A stretch of 35,646 nt of DNA from a virus, in IMG/VR virus record IMGVR_UViG_3300028925_003154, positions 1 to 35,646 of that record. One strand, written 5' to 3'. A program made the position numbers and the translations under genes. The number at the start of each line of letters is the position of its first letter. Position 1 is the stretch's first letter. Below the pieces are notes generated by a model, which saw nothing but the letters and a program-made list of their open reading frames with translations, ran no database searches and was not told the origin of the DNA. Of this stretch, positions 24,668 through 33,316 are shown one piece after another.

Positions 24668-24699
24668 AAAAACCCCCTGTCTAAATAAAGGCAGGGGGT
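24668..24699 (-). terminator. Intrinsic terminator of leftward early operon
   Basis: ACCCCCTG (24672-24679) pairs with CAGGGGGT (24692-24699), extended by two or three inner pairs. Read on the - strand, the stem is followed by TTTTT (24672-24668), so it ends the leftward early transcript 8 bases after the last early stop. Read on the + strand the downstream DNA is A/T mixed, so termination of the late transcript here would be weaker. Confidence 0.75.
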
Positions 24700-24706
24700 A
24701 AATATA

Positions 24707-24850
24707 TTAATCTTCTTTTTTCTTAAACCATCTAATAATTGAACTTAACCAATTAAAATTTATAACACTAGTGGTTGAAAGATCAGTTATGTATTCGCTA
24801 GTGTGATCGTCGTAGCGGTACATAATACCGATAATTTTCTTTTCACTCAT
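24707..24850 (-). CDS. Early small protein, 47 aa, unknown
   Basis: Starts MSEKKIIGIMYRYDD and ends SSIIRWFKKKED. The ATG (24848-24850) lies in an 8-base overlap with the end of the upstream early gene, indicating translational coupling. No known family. It is the last gene before the terminator of the - strand operon. The amphipathic C-terminus with Trp and Lys residues might bind membrane or nucleic acid, which is speculation. Confidence 0.55.
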   Translation of the reverse strand: MSEKKIIGIMYRYDDHTSEYITDLSTTSVINFNWLSSIIRWFKKKED

Positions 24851-25046
24851 CTGGCTTATCCATTAAACTGCCATCTGCAATAATGTTACGGCTGGCGGCA
24901 ATGCGCCTATCCAACGCTGGCATCGATGTTCGTCTAGGTATTTCAGGAGTAGTCTTTCCCCCGCTGAGATACTTAGTCTTTGTCCCGCATTTAAAAACTT
25001 TTTCCAATAGGTTTAAAATTGTAATTTTTAGCTGGTTTTGATACAT
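24843..25046 (-). CDS. Early small protein, 67 aa, unknown
   Basis: Start ATG 25044-25046 is preferred over an upstream TTG (25074-25076) because AAAGGAG (25057-25063) lies 10 bases ahead of it. The protein is basic with an N-terminal hydrophobic helix (LKITILNLLEKVF) and an Arg-rich middle (EIPRRTSMPALDRRIAASRN). No family recognised. It overlaps the previous gene by 56 bases and the next by 8, typical of packed early phage operons. Confidence 0.55.
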   Translation of the reverse strand: MYQNQLKITILNLLEKVFKCGTKTKYLSGGKTTPEIPRRTSMPALDRRIAASRNIIADGSLMDKPDE

Positions 25047-25257
25047 AATTTTCAAACTCCTTTCCAGATTCTTCAATTAACCTTGCCCACATAACTTCAG
25101 GCCGTTGCCTTCGCTCCGATTTCATTTGCTGAAGCTCTTTTTCAGCTTTTAATTTAGCTGTTTCTTCTGGGCCTCTAGCTGCATCTCGTTTTCTTTGCAG
25201 TGTTTCTCGATCTTTTTTTCTTTTTTTTTCTTTCTGATATTCTGATATTTTCCTCAT
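24991..25257 (-). CDS. Early highly basic protein, 88 aa, unknown
   Basis: Start ATG 25255-25257 overlaps the stop of the 30-residue ORF upstream as ATGA and has GAGGGG nearby; a TTG at 25281 is a weaker choice. The first 60 residues are almost only Lys, Arg, Glu and Gln (KEKKRKKDRETLQRKRDAAR), a single charged helix that could bind nucleic acid. The Lys codons create long A-runs in the mRNA, a possible slippage site. Not recognised. Confidence 0.55.
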   Translation of the reverse strand: MRKISEYQKEKKRKKDRETLQRKRDAARGPEETAKLKAEKELQQMKSERRQRPEVMWARLIEESGKEFENYVSKPAKNYNFKPIGKSF

Positions 25258-25346
25258 CGTAGCCCCTCTGAGTAATCCCAACTATGGATGGCCGCTACAA
25301 CGGCCAAAATAGCCCCTGCAAGCAGCAATGCTTTAATGTCGGCCAT
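25254..25346 (-). CDS. 30-residue membrane microprotein
   Basis: Encodes 30 residues, MADIKALLLAGAILAVVAAI then a short polar tail HSWDYSEGLR. Residues 6-20 make one hydrophobic helix. GGGAAG lies about 5 bases before the ATG; the start overlaps the upstream gene by 13 bases and its stop overlaps the next ATG as ATGA, so it fits exactly into the chain of coupled early genes. Such tiny one-helix proteins are often missed; function unknown. Confidence 0.55.
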   Translation of the reverse strand: MADIKALLLAGAILAVVAAIHSWDYSEGLR

Positions 25347-25530
25347 AATGCTTCCCGTGATCCGCAATGACCTTTGCAGCAAGCCCAACAAGGCTTGATG
25401 AAAATAGCTCGTAATTGTTAACTACGTTCCTGCTGTCACGCAAACCTTGAATTATCATCCTGTGATAATCCATTTTGTTAGCGGAAACCACAATTGGTCG
25501 TGGTAATGTCTTGTTAATTTTATTAATCAT
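25333..25530 (-). CDS. Early small protein, 65 aa, unknown
   Basis: Start ATG 25528-25530 overlaps the upstream stop (ATGA). The protein is basic, with PRPIVVSANKMDYHRMIIQG and a C-terminal ADHGKHYGRH rich in His. No family recognised. Part of the coupled - strand early operon. Confidence 0.55.
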   Translation of the reverse strand: MINKINKTLPRPIVVSANKMDYHRMIIQGLRDSRNVVNNYELFSSSLVGLAAKVIADHGKHYGRH

Positions 25531-25829
25531 AAACTGGCCCCCGCTTCATAATCTCGTTCCCACTGAGCGTTGTCCAATTCGTTTTCCTGATCTTGAAGCT
25601 CTTCTTGCATTTTTATATTGATGAGCCGCTTTCGTGCCGCTGTTAATAAAGTGATAGCACTTGAATATGGCATATCAGCTAAATTTTGTAACTCAATTCC
25701 TGCACTCATTTCTGTGCGCTCTTCATTGATCCATTCAGTTGCTAATTGGTCAATAATTGTTTCTGTTTCGACGGTGGTTCCGTCTGCGTTAAAAGTCCAC
25801 CCCAATGCTTCTGCTTTTTCTTGTGTCAT
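25527..25829 (-). CDS. Early acidic protein, 100 aa, unknown
   Basis: Start ATG 25827-25829 is chosen because a GGGAGA-type SD lies 8 bases upstream, right after the UNCG hairpin; further upstream in-frame starts would translate through that hairpin. The protein is acidic and helical: EKAEALGWTFNADGTTVE near 4-21 and a coiled-coil end QEELQDQENELDNAQWERDY. The EALGW...ADGT pattern hints at a small beta-hairpin domain. Function unknown. Confidence 0.6.
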   Translation of the reverse strand: MTQEKAEALGWTFNADGTTVETETIIDQLATEWINEERTEMSAGIELQNLADMPYSSAITLLTAARKRLINIKMQEELQDQENELDNAQWERDYEAGASL

Positions 25830-25847: not shown

Positions 25848-25861
25848 GGGGCCGCAGCCCC
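25848..25861 (-). other. Intercistronic UNCG hairpin 1
   Basis: On the - strand GGGGC-TGCG-GCCCC, a 5-bp GC stem closed by the exceptionally stable c(UGCG)g tetraloop, between the 61-residue and 100-residue early genes and just before the SD of the latter. No T-run follows, so it is not a classical terminator; an mRNA-stability or processing role fits. Confidence 0.7.
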
Positions 25862-25869
25862 GTTGGTTG

Positions 25870-26055
25870 TTAATCTTTTGTCTGATCGCCATCAAGAAAA
25901 ACAGCGACAGGTTTTGGTGCGTTTGTTACGTTTGCAATGAAGTTATAAACTTCAAATGCTTTGTTGCAGTAGTACACTGCACAAACACCGCCAAATTTAG
26001 CTGATTCAAATTGCGCTCGTTTCATGGCAGATTCAACATTAGTTGTTTTAAACAT
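25870..26055 (-). CDS. Early small protein, 61 aa, unknown
   Basis: ATG 26053-26055 with a GGGAGA SD 8 bases upstream. Sequence MFKTTNVESAMKRAQFESAK then FGGVCAVYYCNKAFEVYNFI has two Cys four residues apart and a beta-rich centre. No family recognised. Its leader (hairpin plus AACTGGGAGA box) is nearly the same as that of the following gene, suggesting a duplicated expression cassette. Confidence 0.6.
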   Translation of the reverse strand: MFKTTNVESAMKRAQFESAKFGGVCAVYYCNKAFEVYNFIANVTNAPKPVAVFLDGDQTKD

Positions 26056-26074
26056 TTTATTTCTCCCAGTTGTT

Positions 26075-26090
26075 GGGGGCCGCAGCCCCC
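26075..26090 (-). other. Intercistronic UNCG hairpin 2
   Basis: On the - strand GGGGGC-TGCG-GCCCCC, a 6-bp stem with the c(UGCG)g tetraloop between the 115-residue and 61-residue early genes. Followed by CAACAACTGGGAGA and the next ATG, nearly the same layout as hairpin 1. Confidence 0.7.
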
Positions 26091-26097
26091 GTTGTTG

Positions 26098-26445
26098 TTA
26101 AGCGTCATATTCGCGTGATGCCCATTCGTCGGCTTTATTTTCTTCGTAGCGCATACGGGCTAATTCCCCGTCTTCATCTTCAATAAACTCTTCGTTCTGC
26201 TCCCGATCATATTTTAAATCTTCGTAAGCTGCACGAGCCAACCATAAAGTCTTATGCAGCGTAGGAGCTTTGACTGTAATACCTTCGTCACCACGAGTTA
26301 AACGAACAGTTGACATTGGGCCTTCGCCTGGGAAGTCGGTCATATAACCAACTAAATATAATGGAGCTGAAGGATTTGGTAACACTTCAAACAAGTCCCA
26401 TGCTGGGACGTTTGGATTTGTGCGCTTTGCAATAAAATTTTTCAT
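26098..26445 (-). CDS. Early protein, 115 aa, unknown
   Basis: Start ATG 26443-26445 has AAGGA 9-10 bases upstream; an in-frame TTG at 26517 lies in the promoter and is rejected. The protein has a beta-rich front (DLFEVLPNPSAPLYLVGYMT near 17-36) and a strongly acidic helical end (REQNEEFIEDEDGELARMRY near 80-99). Acidic tails of this kind occur in DNA-mimic inhibitors, but there is no specific evidence. It has its own promoter with an overlapping operator-like dyad at 26512-26523. Confidence 0.6.
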   Translation of the reverse strand: MKNFIAKRTNPNVPAWDLFEVLPNPSAPLYLVGYMTDFPGEGPMSTVRLTRGDEGITVKAPTLHKTLWLARAAYEDLKYDREQNEEFIEDEDGELARMRYEENKADEWASREYDA

Positions 26446-26485
26446 TTTGTTTGTTTCCTTGTTGTGTTGTTGTCTTCTGATTAAA

Positions 26486-26514
26486 AGTATTTCACAGGCT
26501 AATCTATATGTCAA
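26486..26514 (-). promoter_or_regulatory. Promoter for 115-aa early gene
   Basis: On the - strand a perfect TTGACA (26514-26509), 17-base spacer, and AATACT (26491-26486), a four-of-six match to TATAAT. The predicted start would leave a leader of about 35 bases. The dyad at 26512-26523 overlaps the -35 box, so repression by a bound protein is expected. Confidence 0.6.
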
Positions 26515-26524
26515 CAACTTGTTG
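26512..26524. promoter_or_regulatory. Operator-like dyad site 1
   Basis: CAACAACTTGTTG, a 5-bp inverted repeat around ACT containing AACA-N3-TGTT. Overlaps the -35 box of the promoter of the 115-residue gene. Shares its 15-base surrounding sequence with site 2. Confidence 0.6.
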
Positions 26525-26535
26525 TAATAATAAAT

Positions 26536-26553
26536 GGGGAGCCGAAGCCCCCC
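26536..26553 (-). other. Intercistronic UUCG hairpin 3
   Basis: On the - strand a 7-bp stem (one G-U pair) closed by c(UUCG)g, 12 bases after the stop of the 58-residue gene and upstream of the promoter of the next gene. It may end or stabilise the first early message; the following bases are only moderately T-rich (ATTTATTATT). Confidence 0.7.
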
Positions 26554-26565
26554 TTTGTTACACGG

Positions 26566-26742
26566 TTAAATTTGGTTAATAGCTGCTCCTAAAGAATCAC
26601 GATCCGCGTGATAATTACCGTCAGGATAAATGTCTGTTCCATCTTTGTTGAGCAGCCAATAGCCCCAACCATCATTAAATCTTTGTGTTGCAACCTTTGC
26701 ATTTTTTACGTCTGCCAATTTTCGCAATTGCTTTAAAGTCAT
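26566..26742 (-). CDS. First gene of leftward early operon, 58 aa, unknown
   Basis: ATG 26740-26742 with AAAGGA 7 bases upstream. The protein reads MTLKQLRKLADVKNAKVATQ, then RFNDGWGYWLLNKDGTDIYP and ends ADRDSLGAAINQI: a short helix followed by a beta-hairpin rich in Trp and Tyr. No family recognised. It is preceded by a hairpin and a promoter controlled by the divergent operator region. Confidence 0.6.
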   Translation of the reverse strand: MTLKQLRKLADVKNAKVATQRFNDGWGYWLLNKDGTDIYPDGNYHADRDSLGAAINQI

Positions 26743-26763
26743 TTCAATTCCTTTCTAAATGGT

Positions 26764-26777
26764 GGGGCCGCAGCCCC
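26764..26777 (-). other. UNCG hairpin 4 in leader of first early gene
   Basis: On the - strand GGGGC-TGCG-GCCCC in the 5' leader between promoter and the 58-residue gene, 22 bases before its ATG. Same stem and tetraloop as hairpin 1, but here at the very start of the message instead of between genes. Confidence 0.7.
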
Positions 26778-26789
26778 GTTTAAATTATT

Positions 26790-26818
26790 AAGTTAAAGAC
26801 CCACATCATCATTGTCAA
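26790..26818 (-). promoter_or_regulatory. Promoter for leftward early operon
   Basis: On the - strand a perfect TTGACA (26818-26813), 17-base spacer and a weak TAACTT (26795-26790). The dyad CAACAACTTGTTA begins inside the -35 box. The weak -10 suggests help from another factor or tight control. Confidence 0.5.
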
Positions 26819-26828
26819 CAACTTGTTA
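26816..26828. promoter_or_regulatory. Operator-like dyad site 2
   Basis: CAACAACTTGTTA in the divergent region, with the AACA-N3-TGTT core. It runs directly into a second dyad, TTGTTAACAA (26823-26832), a perfect 10-base palindrome, giving possible cooperative binding next to the leftward -35 box. Confidence 0.55.
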
Positions 26829-26892: not shown

Positions 26893-27078
26893 ATGAACAT
26901 AAAAAAATACATTAAATCTAAGGGTTTCCCGCTGGCGACCGCAGCGGCTGAACTTGACGTTACAAGGCAAGCTTTGAATCTTTGGATAAATGGCAAGCGG
27001 ATTCCGCGCCCAGCTCAGATGAAAAAAATTCAAAACTGGTCAGAGGGTGAAGTGACTGCACTGGATTTTTACAAATGA
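26893..27078 (+). CDS. Cro-like HTH transcriptional regulator
   Basis: 61 residues from ATG 26893; an upstream in-frame start at 26854 lies within the promoter. The helix-turn-helix is PLATAAAELDVTRQALNLWI (12-31), with VTRQAL as recognition helix start, then NGKRIPRPAQMKKIQ and ALDFY, a pattern common in phage Cro/XRE-type regulators that act without a C-terminal multimerisation domain. It begins the rightward early block and lies opposite the leftward operon. The AACA-N3-TGTT dyads around it are its likely targets. The stop overlaps the resolvase start. Confidence 0.75.
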   Translation: MNIKKYIKSKGFPLATAAAELDVTRQALNLWINGKRIPRPAQMKKIQNWSEGEVTALDFYK

Positions 27079-29542: not shown

Positions 29543-31537
29543 ATGAGATATGAAAAATATGCGGAAGAATTGGCGACACTAGGTTACGATGTAACTCCGC
29601 TGAATGGTAAAGTGCCTATTTTAAAAGCATGGCAGACTAGGCCAGACACCGCCAAAGATTACGCCAAGCATGGCAACAGCAACATTGGGTTACTATGCGG
29701 TGGAATCCACAACATTGTTGCCGTTGACATTGATGTTAAAGACCCCGCAACGGCTGAAACAATTCGTAACATTGCGATTGATCAGCTAGGTTTTGCTCCA
29801 GAACGAATCGGCAATGCTCCAAAGACGTTGTTTGTTTTCAAATGTTCTGAGCCGTTCTATAAAACTAAAACAGCTATTTATTCGATTAAAGGACAAGATG
29901 CCTGTATTGAAGTCTTAGCTGAAGGCCAGCAATTTGTAGCCAGTGGAAAACACCCAGATACAAAGAAGAACTATAGCTGGCCAGACGATAGTCTTTTAGA
30001 TGTTCCACCATTAGCATTAACAACGATTAGCCCATCTGACATTACATCTTTCATTGCCGTCTGCAACAACACCTTGGCAGAACGTGGAGAGATTAAAGCA
30101 AAGTCATTATCAAACGGATCGAAGCCGCCAGAGAACACAAACTTTGATTTTGCTGAAGATACAAAGATGGCAGATTTAGAAAAGATAGATAATGCGATAT
30201 GCCATGTTCCTAACAACGACTTACATTATGACGACTGGGTTTATACGGCTCATGCAATAAAGGGTAGTGTTGGGCCAGAAGGTCTGGAGCTATTCCACAA
30301 ATGGTCAAAGCGATCGTCCAAGTATGATCCAACAGAAACGGACAGATTGTGGAACTCAATCGGTGAAGTTAAAACGATTGGCGCTGGATCAATCTTTCAT
30401 ATGGCGCAGCAGAATGGCTTTGATCTTACTTGCTTAACACCAAAGAACTTTGGCCCTGATGATCTAGAAGACCAAATAAGCGTTACTGATGACGATATTG
30501 AAGGCGATGGTAGTTTTGTGGCATCAAGCGTTGTTGGGCCTCTGCCTGACAGAGAATGGTTATTAGACCAATGGTTCCCTTATAAGACAACGGGGTTGTT
30601 CTTTGGGGCTGGTGGCGTTGGCAAATCTTTATTAATTCACCAGTTTGCTAATTGTGTTGCAATGGGGAAAGATTTCTTTGGTATAGCAACTAAGCAGATG
30701 CCAGTTATTTGCGTTATGTGTGAAGATGATTCATTGGAGTTAAAACGTAGGCAACTAGACATTAATAATTGGCTAGGCGTTGCAGAATTTGACGCTGGCC
30801 CCGACGATCTGACGCTGTGGCCTAGAGTTGGAAGCGACAATATTATTGTTACTTTTCCAAGCCAAGGTGAAGCAAAGGCAGGTGAATTTTACAAGATACT
30901 ATGCGATAAGATTAAAGAAATTAAAAAAGATAGAGATGACGTTTTAGTTATTCTTGACACAGCGGCTGATATGTTTGGCGGCAATGAGAATGTCCGTAGA
31001 GAAGTAAATACATTCTGTAAGACCTATTTAGGGTCTTTAACGAAGCAGTTTAATGCTACGGTTATACTTCTAGCGCATCCATCGTTGTCGGGCCTTGCAA
31101 GCGGCTCTGGGTTGTCAGGATCAACCGCCTGGGAGAACAGTGTCAGAAGCCGCGCATACTTAGAGAGAGTGAAGGACAGCGACGAATTAAGGGTGTTATC
31201 TAGAAAGAAATCTAACTACTCTGATATTGGTGGCGACAGCGATATTACTCTTATTTGGGATAAAGGCGTAATGGTGATGCCATCGTCACCAGATCAATTG
31301 GATAGGATCAATAACACGAAGTTAAAAGAAGATATATTAACTGAAATTGAATCAGCTTGGTGCGATAATACGCCATACAAATCTAATAAATCGCAGGGCA
31401 GAATTGTTAAGACGGCACTGCCAAAAGCCTTTCCAAATGAGAAGAAAGGGCCACTATTAAAAGCCTTCAATGACCTAGTAGATGAAGGCAAAATAATCAA
31501 CATTGACCGCAAGGGGTTTAGGGTGCAAAAACGATGA
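29543..31537 (+). CDS. Primase-polymerase / RepA-like helicase fusion
   Basis: 664 residues. N-terminal Prim-Pol domain (about 5-170): NIVAVDIDVKD with Asp62 and Asp64 as metal ligands, then GQQFVASGKHPDT with a conserved His. A primase C-terminal domain follows (about 210-300; HYDDWVYTAHAIKG, WNSIGEVKTIGAGSIFHMA). The helicase part (about 335-560) has Walker A GAGGVGKS at 355-362, Walker B VLVILDTAAD and a sensor-like TVILLAHPS. A small winged-helix-like end follows (about 590-664). Together it primes and unwinds DNA. No DNA polymerase of family A or B is present, so elongation must use the host enzyme or the Prim-Pol itself. Confidence 0.85.
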   Translation: MRYEKYAEELATLGYDVTPLNGKVPILKAWQTRPDTAKDYAKHGNSNIGLLCGGIHNIVAVDIDVKDPATAETIRNIAIDQLGFAPERIGNAPKTLFVFKCSEPFYKTKTAIYSIKGQDACIEVLAEGQQFVASGKHPDTKKNYSWPDDSLLDVPPLALTTISPSDITSFIAVCNNTLAERGEIKAKSLSNGSKPPENTNFDFAEDTKMADLEKIDNAICHVPNNDLHYDDWVYTAHAIKGSVGPEGLELFHKWSKRSSKYDPTETDRLWNSIGEVKTIGAGSIFHMAQQNGFDLTCLTPKNFGPDDLEDQISVTDDDIEGDGSFVASSVVGPLPDREWLLDQWFPYKTTGLFFGAGGVGKSLLIHQFANCVAMGKDFFGIATKQMPVICVMCEDDSLELKRRQLDINNWLGVAEFDAGPDDLTLWPRVGSDNIIVTFPSQGEAKAGEFYKILCDKIKEIKKDRDDVLVILDTAADMFGGNENVRREVNTFCKTYLGSLTKQFNATVILLAHPSLSGLASGSGLSGSTAWENSVRSRAYLERVKDSDELRVLSRKKSNYSDIGGDSDITLIWDKGVMVMPSSPDQLDRINNTKLKEDILTEIESAWCDNTPYKSNKSQGRIVKTALPKAFPNEKKGPLLKAFNDLVDEGKIINIDRKGFRVQKR

Positions 31538-32374: not shown

Positions 32375-33316
32375 ATGATGAGTAGTATAGCTTTGTATGA
32401 TGTAGATAGCACAATCCCAAATCTGGCACTTATGAAAGTTTCAAGCTACCATAAAAGTCTTGGTGATAGTGTGGTGTTGTATGACCCTTTATTCCAATCG
32501 TCATATGATAAGGTATATGCGTCAAAGATTTTTAAGTTTTCTGACGGGTCTTTGCTGGACGATTCCCGCATGGAAATAGGCGGCACTGGTTGGGATTTAC
32601 GATCTAAACTTGCGCCAGAGATAGAAGATTGTAAGCCAGATTATTCACTGTATGGATACCCACATAATATAGGCTTTACTATGCGGGGCTGTCGGTTCCG
32701 TTGTAAGTTCTGTGTAGTCCCAGAAAAAGAAGGAAAACCATACGAGGAAAACACGATTAACGAATTATGGCAGCAACGCAATAGCAATTTTGTTATGCTT
32801 TTGGACAACGATTTTTTTGGAAACCCATCGTGGTCTGACAGGATTGACGAAATAAAAAAGTTTAAGTTAAAAGTTTGCTTTAGCCAAGGGCTAAATATAC
32901 GCATCATCACGGAAGAACAAGCGGCTGCTTTAGCGTCAGTAAACTTTACAAATGTTAAAAACACAAGGAAGCAAGTGTTCTTTGCTTGGGATCAATGGGG
33001 CAAAGGCACAGAAAAAGTTATAATGAGCGGTATAGAAAGAGTTGTTGACGCTGGTATTAAACCATATCAGATGGCGTTTTTTGTTCTTATTGGGTTTAAC
33101 ACAACACCAGATCAGGATTTGTACAGAGTTGAGAAGTTGCGGGGTATTGGTTGTGACCCGTATGTTATGCCCTATGACAAAAAAGATTCCTATCAGAAAG
33201 CATTTACCCGTTGGGCAAACCATAAAGCGATATTTAAATCTGTGCCGTGGAATGATTATAAATCAGGTGGCTGGAACCCAGAGCAATCAAAAAAATATTT
33301 GGAGTTAATTAAATGA
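32375..33316 (+). CDS. Radical SAM enzyme of phage family
   Basis: 313 residues. GCRFRCKFC (105-113) is the CX3CX2C motif whose Cys106, Cys110 and Cys113 hold a 4Fe-4S cluster that splits S-adenosylmethionine. An N-terminal Rossmann-like part (1-95; ALYDVDSTIPNLALMK) resembles cobalamin-type or MiaB-like front domains but lacks a clear B12 His motif. CVVPEKEG, MLLDNDFFGNPSW and FVLIGFNTTPDQD are family signatures that I associate with phage radical SAM proteins of unknown substrate. ATG 32378 is an alternative start with better SD spacing. The next gene acts on dNTPs, so nucleotide or DNA modification is a reasonable guess. Confidence 0.78.
   Translation: MMSSIALYDVDSTIPNLALMKVSSYHKSLGDSVVLYDPLFQSSYDKVYASKIFKFSDGSLLDDSRMEIGGTGWDLRSKLAPEIEDCKPDYSLYGYPHNIGFTMRGCRFRCKFCVVPEKEGKPYEENTINELWQQRNSNFVMLLDNDFFGNPSWSDRIDEIKKFKLKVCFSQGLNIRIITEEQAAALASVNFTNVKNTRKQVFFAWDQWGKGTEKVIMSGIERVVDAGIKPYQMAFFVLIGFNTTPDQDLYRVEKLRGIGCDPYVMPYDKKDSYQKAFTRWANHKAIFKSVPWNDYKSGGWNPEQSKKYLELIK

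Follow-up and report, generated by a model that had tools for sequence, protein, structure and literature searches.

The leftward operon of the window (the whole analysed stretch of viral DNA, 35,646 nt) contains four hairpins with UNCG tetraloops, which are real, conserved, and well-placed RNA elements of an already known kind. With a probability of roughly 0.55, we interpret them as intercistronic RNA punctuation in the promoter-proximal, variable part of the operon, isolating and protecting the messages and residing on exchangeable gene junctions. The rule of their occurrence is one hairpin per gap between genes, not per gene.

The leftward operon comprises nine small genes on the minus strand, from 26742 to 24707; genes are named below by the coordinate of the start codon. 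The three upstream accessory genes (26566–26742, 58 aa; 26098–26445, 115 aa; 25870–26055, 61 aa) belong to no family and, among the fetched loci, have homologs only in L004, which represents this very phage and has all four hairpins. They are followed by the first conserved gene of the operon (25527–25829, 100 aa), with homologs in L349, L350, and L351, and by five more small genes (24707–25530), each overlapping its predecessor, with no UNCG hairpin between them; most of these downstream genes also recur in L349, L350, and L351. In place of the single ORF 25527–25829, L349, L350, and L351 have two ORFs that adjoin or overlap, pointing to a gene fusion or split. The eight operon proteins other than the 30-aa ORF 25346–25254 were scanned and gave no PHROG or Pfam match.

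Two minus-strand promoters are predicted from the sequence: P1 (26790–26818; TTGACA, 17 nt, TAACTT) and P2 (26486–26514; TTGACA, 17 nt, AATACT). P2 with its leader has a homolog in the first promoter of L350, and the homology extends to the T-rich stretch preceding the promoter. The palindrome AACAA-C-TTGTT has only two copies in the window, at 26513–26523 and 26817–26827, each overlapping a leftward −35 box. A Cro/HTH-like gene (26896–27078, plus strand) adjoins the leftward operon and diverges from it; AACAA-N-TTGTT is a likely, putative operator for its product. At the other end, the operon has an intrinsic terminator (24672–24699, minus strand) with a CCCCCUG stem followed by UUUUU and a loop other than UNCG; it is conserved in L350, matched in L351, and situated where the rightward and leftward gene blocks converge. 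The rightward block includes a radical SAM domain protein (32375–33316, phrog_9298), an unusual cargo. The gene at 29543–31537 encodes a primase-helicase-like protein; its N-terminal half gives matches to phage primases, and its C-terminal half is similar to RepA/ATPase proteins of Wolbachia phage WO (~40% identity).

All four hairpins are located on the minus strand where the preliminary description had placed them. Hairpin 1 (26764–26777), GGGGC(UGCG)GCCCC, sits in the P1 leader, 21 nt before ATG 26742, and originates from a gene junction (see below). Hairpin 2 (26536–26553), GGGGGGC(UUCG)GCUCCCC, with one G–U pair, begins 12 nt after the stop codon of gene 26742 (26742–26566) and has P2 directly downstream. 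Hairpin 3 (26075–26090), GGGGGC(UGCG)GCCCCC, lies within a 42-nt gap, 19 nt before ATG 26055, and hairpin 4 (25848–25861), GGGGC(UGCG)GCCCC, within a 40-nt gap, 18 nt before ATG 25829. Hence, the loop is UGCG in three of the four (hairpins 1, 3, and 4) and UUCG in hairpin 2 only. With a UNCG loop closed by a C–G pair, a stable stem, and location on the transcribed strand, all four belong to the cUNCGg class; zero matches to Rfam covariance models at the gathering score were obtained in the window. The loops read as UNCG in the sense of the leftward RNA only, and the G–U pair of hairpin 2 would become an A–C mismatch on the other strand; this G–U wobble is retained in the L350 counterpart of the 26536 hairpin and in two L037 copies. 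Both observations agree with the earlier claim that the pattern fits only the leftward transcript. In RNA folding, each hairpin forms alone as a local structure, and the Shine–Dalgarno sequence and start codon downstream of hairpins 1, 3, and 4 are open in the centroid fold.

No other UNCG hairpin with a stem of 5 bp or more and three or more G–C pairs occurs on either strand of the 35.6-kb window. For comparison with shuffled sequences, a strong hairpin was defined by cUNCGg closure and at least five G–C pairs. Against the four observed, dinucleotide shuffling yields on average 0.01 strong hairpins for the whole window (maximum 1, n = 300) and 0.0003 for the 2.5-kb region (maximum 1, n = 3000).

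The hairpins in the window are found in the 40-nt gap before gene 25829, in the 42-nt gap before gene 26055, and in the 120-nt gap containing P2, while the five junctions further downstream, overlapping by 4–56 nt, have no UNCG hairpin. The same is observed in L350 (same contig as L035): a hairpin is present in 5/5 gaps of 40–43 nt and in 0/7 overlapping junctions. Pooled for the window and L350, this gives a hairpin in 8/8 gapped vs. 0/12 overlapping junctions (Fisher p ~8e-6). The distance from the 3' end of the hairpin to the ATG is 18–21 nt in the window and 18 or 21 nt in L350. The pattern is, hence, systematic, as proposed in the preliminary description, and is kept in relatives, although it consists in the marking of gapped junctions; the proposed one hairpin per gene does not hold, given the five overlapping downstream genes without any.

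Many unrelated contigs of viruses share the arrangement of stop codon, hairpin, Shine–Dalgarno sequence, and ATG; the stems differ between them, yet are complementary. When IMG/VR was scanned for GGGGC-UNCG-GCCCC with GGAG and ATG downstream, at least 121 matches were obtained; among the matches listed, an ORF of at least 40 codons follows in 114 of 121, and in 31 of 119 with the opposite loop orientation. Many matches of the latter type (CGNA) are reversed UNCG cassettes; the properties of the matches were used, not their numbers. The 117 distinct cassettes among the matches listed have the hairpin 20.7 ± 3.6 nt (mean, sd) before the ATG, mostly with a stop codon 2–12 nt before the stem; their loops are UUCG (96), UACG (12), UCCG (7), and UGCG (2). 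In a second scan, CTTCGG, AGGAG, and ATG were fixed and the stem was left free, which makes it an unbiased test of pairing. Here, a stem of at least 5 bp is formed at 33/74 CTTCGG sites upstream of a Shine–Dalgarno sequence and ATG vs. 30/625 of the remaining CTTCGG sites of these loci (p ~4e-19); every inner stem position uses five or six types of standard pair. As these loci are unrelated, the result indicates recurrent selection for the stem rather than covariation within one family. The window is dense in such elements: four or five copies per ~1.2 kb vs. a maximum of three in 3 kb among 120 contigs selected for having the hairpin.

Comparison with annotated phages (megablast, 15.6 kb) revealed no close relative, and the sole genome match is the portal protein, with 31% in a Pelagimonas contig; L009 was left out of the comparison, the region to the left of ruvC being differently arranged. 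All four records with a homolog of gene 25829 (L004, L349, L350, and L351) retain the hairpin before this gene (GGGGCTGCGGCCCC) and its ribosome-binding site, while the upstream gene at this junction in each of L349, L350, and L351 differs from that in the window (the L351 junction was read directly from the sequence). Loss of hairpins while the genes persist, suggested earlier as evidence against the pattern, is thus not seen for gene 25829, to which this test applies, the three accessory genes having no homologs outside L004. In L037, an ortholog of a hairpin-preceded L350 gene is present without the hairpin, and leftward genes of L030 and L038 also have none; hence, expression of such genes does not require the element. 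As for the stem covariation expected in relatives, the core GGGGC/GCCCC hardly varies and covariation is weak, the main signals being the stem length and the kept G–U pair.

Positions 26794–26763 of the window coincide with positions 974–1005 of L350 in 32/32 bases, and in L350 this segment comprises the end of gene 837–980, its stop codon, and the hairpin; hairpin 1 with 17 nt upstream is, therefore, the same as an intercistronic junction of L350. Past hairpin 1, the window reads CACCATTTAGAAAGGAA; in L350, this sequence comes after another hairpin (1686–1703), with a UUCG loop, which is the counterpart of hairpin 2 and is situated at a gene junction, followed by a ribosome-binding site. Hence, the window joins halves of two L350 junctions, re-assorted with the breakpoint at the hairpin. 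The 32-base identity with a gene junction shows that hairpin 1 entered the P1 leader by fusion of a promoter with a junction, probably through a deletion in the ancestor of the window; at the −10 position of P1, relatives have TATATT vs. TAACTT in the window, a change that seems to have been caused by the fusion. No hairpin was found in the leaders of L349, L350, L351, and L030, so that the earlier inclusion of the leader hairpin in the general pattern is not supported, hairpin 1 being a relic of a junction; for the same reason, we rejected hairpin 1 as a designed leader element. Taken as a whole, the sequence comparison provides clear evidence for gene exchange at hairpin junctions. Two different genes of L350, at 1397 and 2160, have identical junctions from the hairpin to the ribosome-binding site, and the encoded proteins share the initial residues MTKNEAE, which looks like copying of the translation start region together with the hairpin.

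Several other explanations of the hairpins may be considered. They might be kept mainly as homology for gene exchange, i.e., as recombination linkers with no selected role in RNA. The sharing of the accessory block between the window and L350 is almost limited to hairpin junctions and promoter regions, with breakpoints on either side of the hairpin, in favor of this explanation; however, a DNA linker needs neither the sense orientation of UNCG, nor varied complementary stems, nor a fixed distance to the ATG across unrelated phages, and we consider it unlikely. A role as intrinsic terminators or attenuators, cutting read-through along the operon, is rather improbable. The GC stems are stable, hairpin 2 is followed by AUUUAUUAUU ahead of a new promoter, and a title cited in PMC5931544 terms T4 stem-loop cassettes promoter–terminator motifs. 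On the other hand, three of the four hairpins lead directly into ATCAAC, AACAAC, or ACCATTTAG, with no U-run, and what looks like a T-rich tail of hairpin 2 belongs to the upstream portion of P2, the same sequence being found before the L350 promoter without a hairpin; this is in line with the preliminary description, where no strong T-run had been noted. Moreover, the L350 counterpart of hairpin 2 precedes a ribosome-binding site, at least five T within 8 nt after the stem are observed in just 31/117 IMG/VR cassettes among the matches listed, and the GC stem with an immediate U-run that is lacking in the hairpins is seen in the canonical terminator at 24672–24699, which ends the operon. The candidate role of hairpin 2 as a terminator was dropped after its tail had been aligned with the L350 promoter.

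The presence of the same hairpin before several start codons, at a distance suitable for operator hairpins, would also be expected of binding sites for a phage or host translational regulator controlling several accessory genes jointly. This explanation is very improbable, since the hairpins lie upstream of the Shine–Dalgarno sequence and do not sequester it, neither loops nor stems are constant among phages, the UNCG loop has a closed structure, and no candidate regulator was identified. DNA operators, i.e., stoperator-like palindromes recognized by a phage repressor, could account for the several nearly perfect palindromes of the early region next to the Cro/HTH-like gene 26896–27078 (plus strand). 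However, the fixed loop orientation, the paired stems of varying length and sequence, and the kept G–U pair are not required by a DNA palindrome, and AACAANTTGTT would be a better candidate target of the HTH protein than the hairpin DNA, the two AACAA-N-TTGTT copies of the window overlapping the −35 boxes of both leftward promoters; hence, we regard the hairpins as extremely unlikely operators. Equally doubtful, and largely refuted, is the explanation by which the hairpin protects only the 5' end of the primary leftward transcript, with the internal copies as by-products. Indeed, hairpin 1 would start ~10 nt or less from the predicted P1 transcript start; the hairpin-free leaders of L349, L350, L351, and L030, however, argue against a main role in protecting the primary 5' end, as does the identity of hairpin 1 and the 17 nt upstream with an intercistronic junction of L350. 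Promoter hairpins for an N4-type virion RNA polymerase were considered and dropped, the hairpins following sigma-70-like promoters and lying between stop codons and Shine–Dalgarno sequences.

Intercistronic punctuation agrees with the position between the stop codon and the Shine–Dalgarno sequence, the open Shine–Dalgarno sequence, the absence of U-runs, and the occurrence in gaps only. The leftward operon would be transcribed from host-type (sigma-70-like) promoters, and in the transcript, the stop codon would be followed by a short unstructured linker (often CAAC) and then by a GC stem with a UNCG tetraloop that folds once transcribed, with the next ATG, preceded by a strong Shine–Dalgarno sequence, 18–21 nt past the stem. 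The stem most likely blocks 3'-to-5' exonucleases, yielding protected message ends, and protected ends after processing, as proposed in the preliminary description, are a plausible candidate mechanism. The stem also most likely shields the ribosome-binding site that follows from RNA structure and ribosomes upstream, allowing independent translation of the accessory genes; the overlapping core genes are probably translationally coupled and would not need a hairpin. The junction (linker, hairpin, and ribosome-binding site) would then be the unit into which new genes are exchanged, with breakpoints at the hairpin. While placement, strand, stem pairing, the gap rule, junction exchange, and the absence of terminator T-runs are read from the compared sequences, message stability and insulation are what we infer to be the selected function; mRNA protection, insulation of the ribosome-binding site, and mere spacing in compact genomes are not separable by sequence. 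Tentatively, the junction of stop codon, hairpin, and ribosome-binding site might serve tailed phages generally, in many groups beyond the T4 type, as an exchange module without a promoter, supplying each incoming gene with an insulated ribosome-binding site and with homology for swapping. If the punctuation role is correct, UNCG hairpins mark gaps into which phages insert small accessory genes, often without an assigned function; the motif (stop, ~7 nt, UNCG hairpin, ~20 nt, ATG) could aid annotation of short genes and start codons in metagenomes, and could locate exchange points in early regions.

CUUCGG intercistronic hairpins of T4 and other phages were reportedly described by Tuerk et al. 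in 1988, as cited in PMC8948821. Hairpins of this kind occur frequently in the intervals between genes of phages, and reverse transcriptase stops at them; a 5' CUUCGG hairpin stabilises the T4 gene 32 mRNA (PMC8948821). The hairpins of the window share with them the UNCG-capped GC stem, the sense strand, and the location mostly between a stop codon and the next start, and the resemblance to T4 suggested in the preliminary description is borne out by the similar placement in T4 1–45 kb: CUUCGG hairpins there are mostly in gene gaps, with intergenic copies 22–70 nt before the next start and three of them 2–6 nt past a stop codon. Hairpins 3 and 4, and also five in L350, lie as in T4 in a gap between co-directional genes before a start codon, while the gap with hairpin 2 also holds a promoter, and hairpin 1 is in a leader and derived from a junction. 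The spacing in the window (18–21 nt) is tighter than in T4, and a loop of exactly UUCG is seen in hairpin 2 only, the other three having UGCG, which is rare (2/117 IMG/VR cassettes among the matches listed). In phage 7-11, a TTCG-loop hairpin precedes a sigma-factor gene, and an RNA 5' end was mapped in that gap; processing and reverse-transcriptase stalling were not distinguishable according to the authors (PMC8948821). This hairpin is similar in having a UUCG loop and in lying in a gap before a start codon; unlike those in the window, it is a single copy and precedes a different gene.

PeSL stem-loop cassettes are said to have been described by Arbiol in 2010 and Comeau in 2014. Known from T4-type phages and mentioned in PMC3950731, they are stem-loop cassettes that mediate gene shuffling. 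Common to both systems are stem-loops at junctions in a variable early region, with genes swapped between them; exchange between related phages is seen here as well, the same junctions being followed or preceded by different genes. Hairpin 2 with P2 resembles PeSL as a stem-loop beside an early-type promoter, and is the only one of the four beside a promoter, so that an early promoter and a stem-loop do not form one unit in the window. Unlike PeSL, hairpins 3 and 4 lie in gaps of 40–42 nt without a promoter, and the conserved unit of the window is the hairpin with the ribosome-binding site. Generally, the layout known from T4 is found here in many other phages, and the window is a new example of it rather than a new mechanism.
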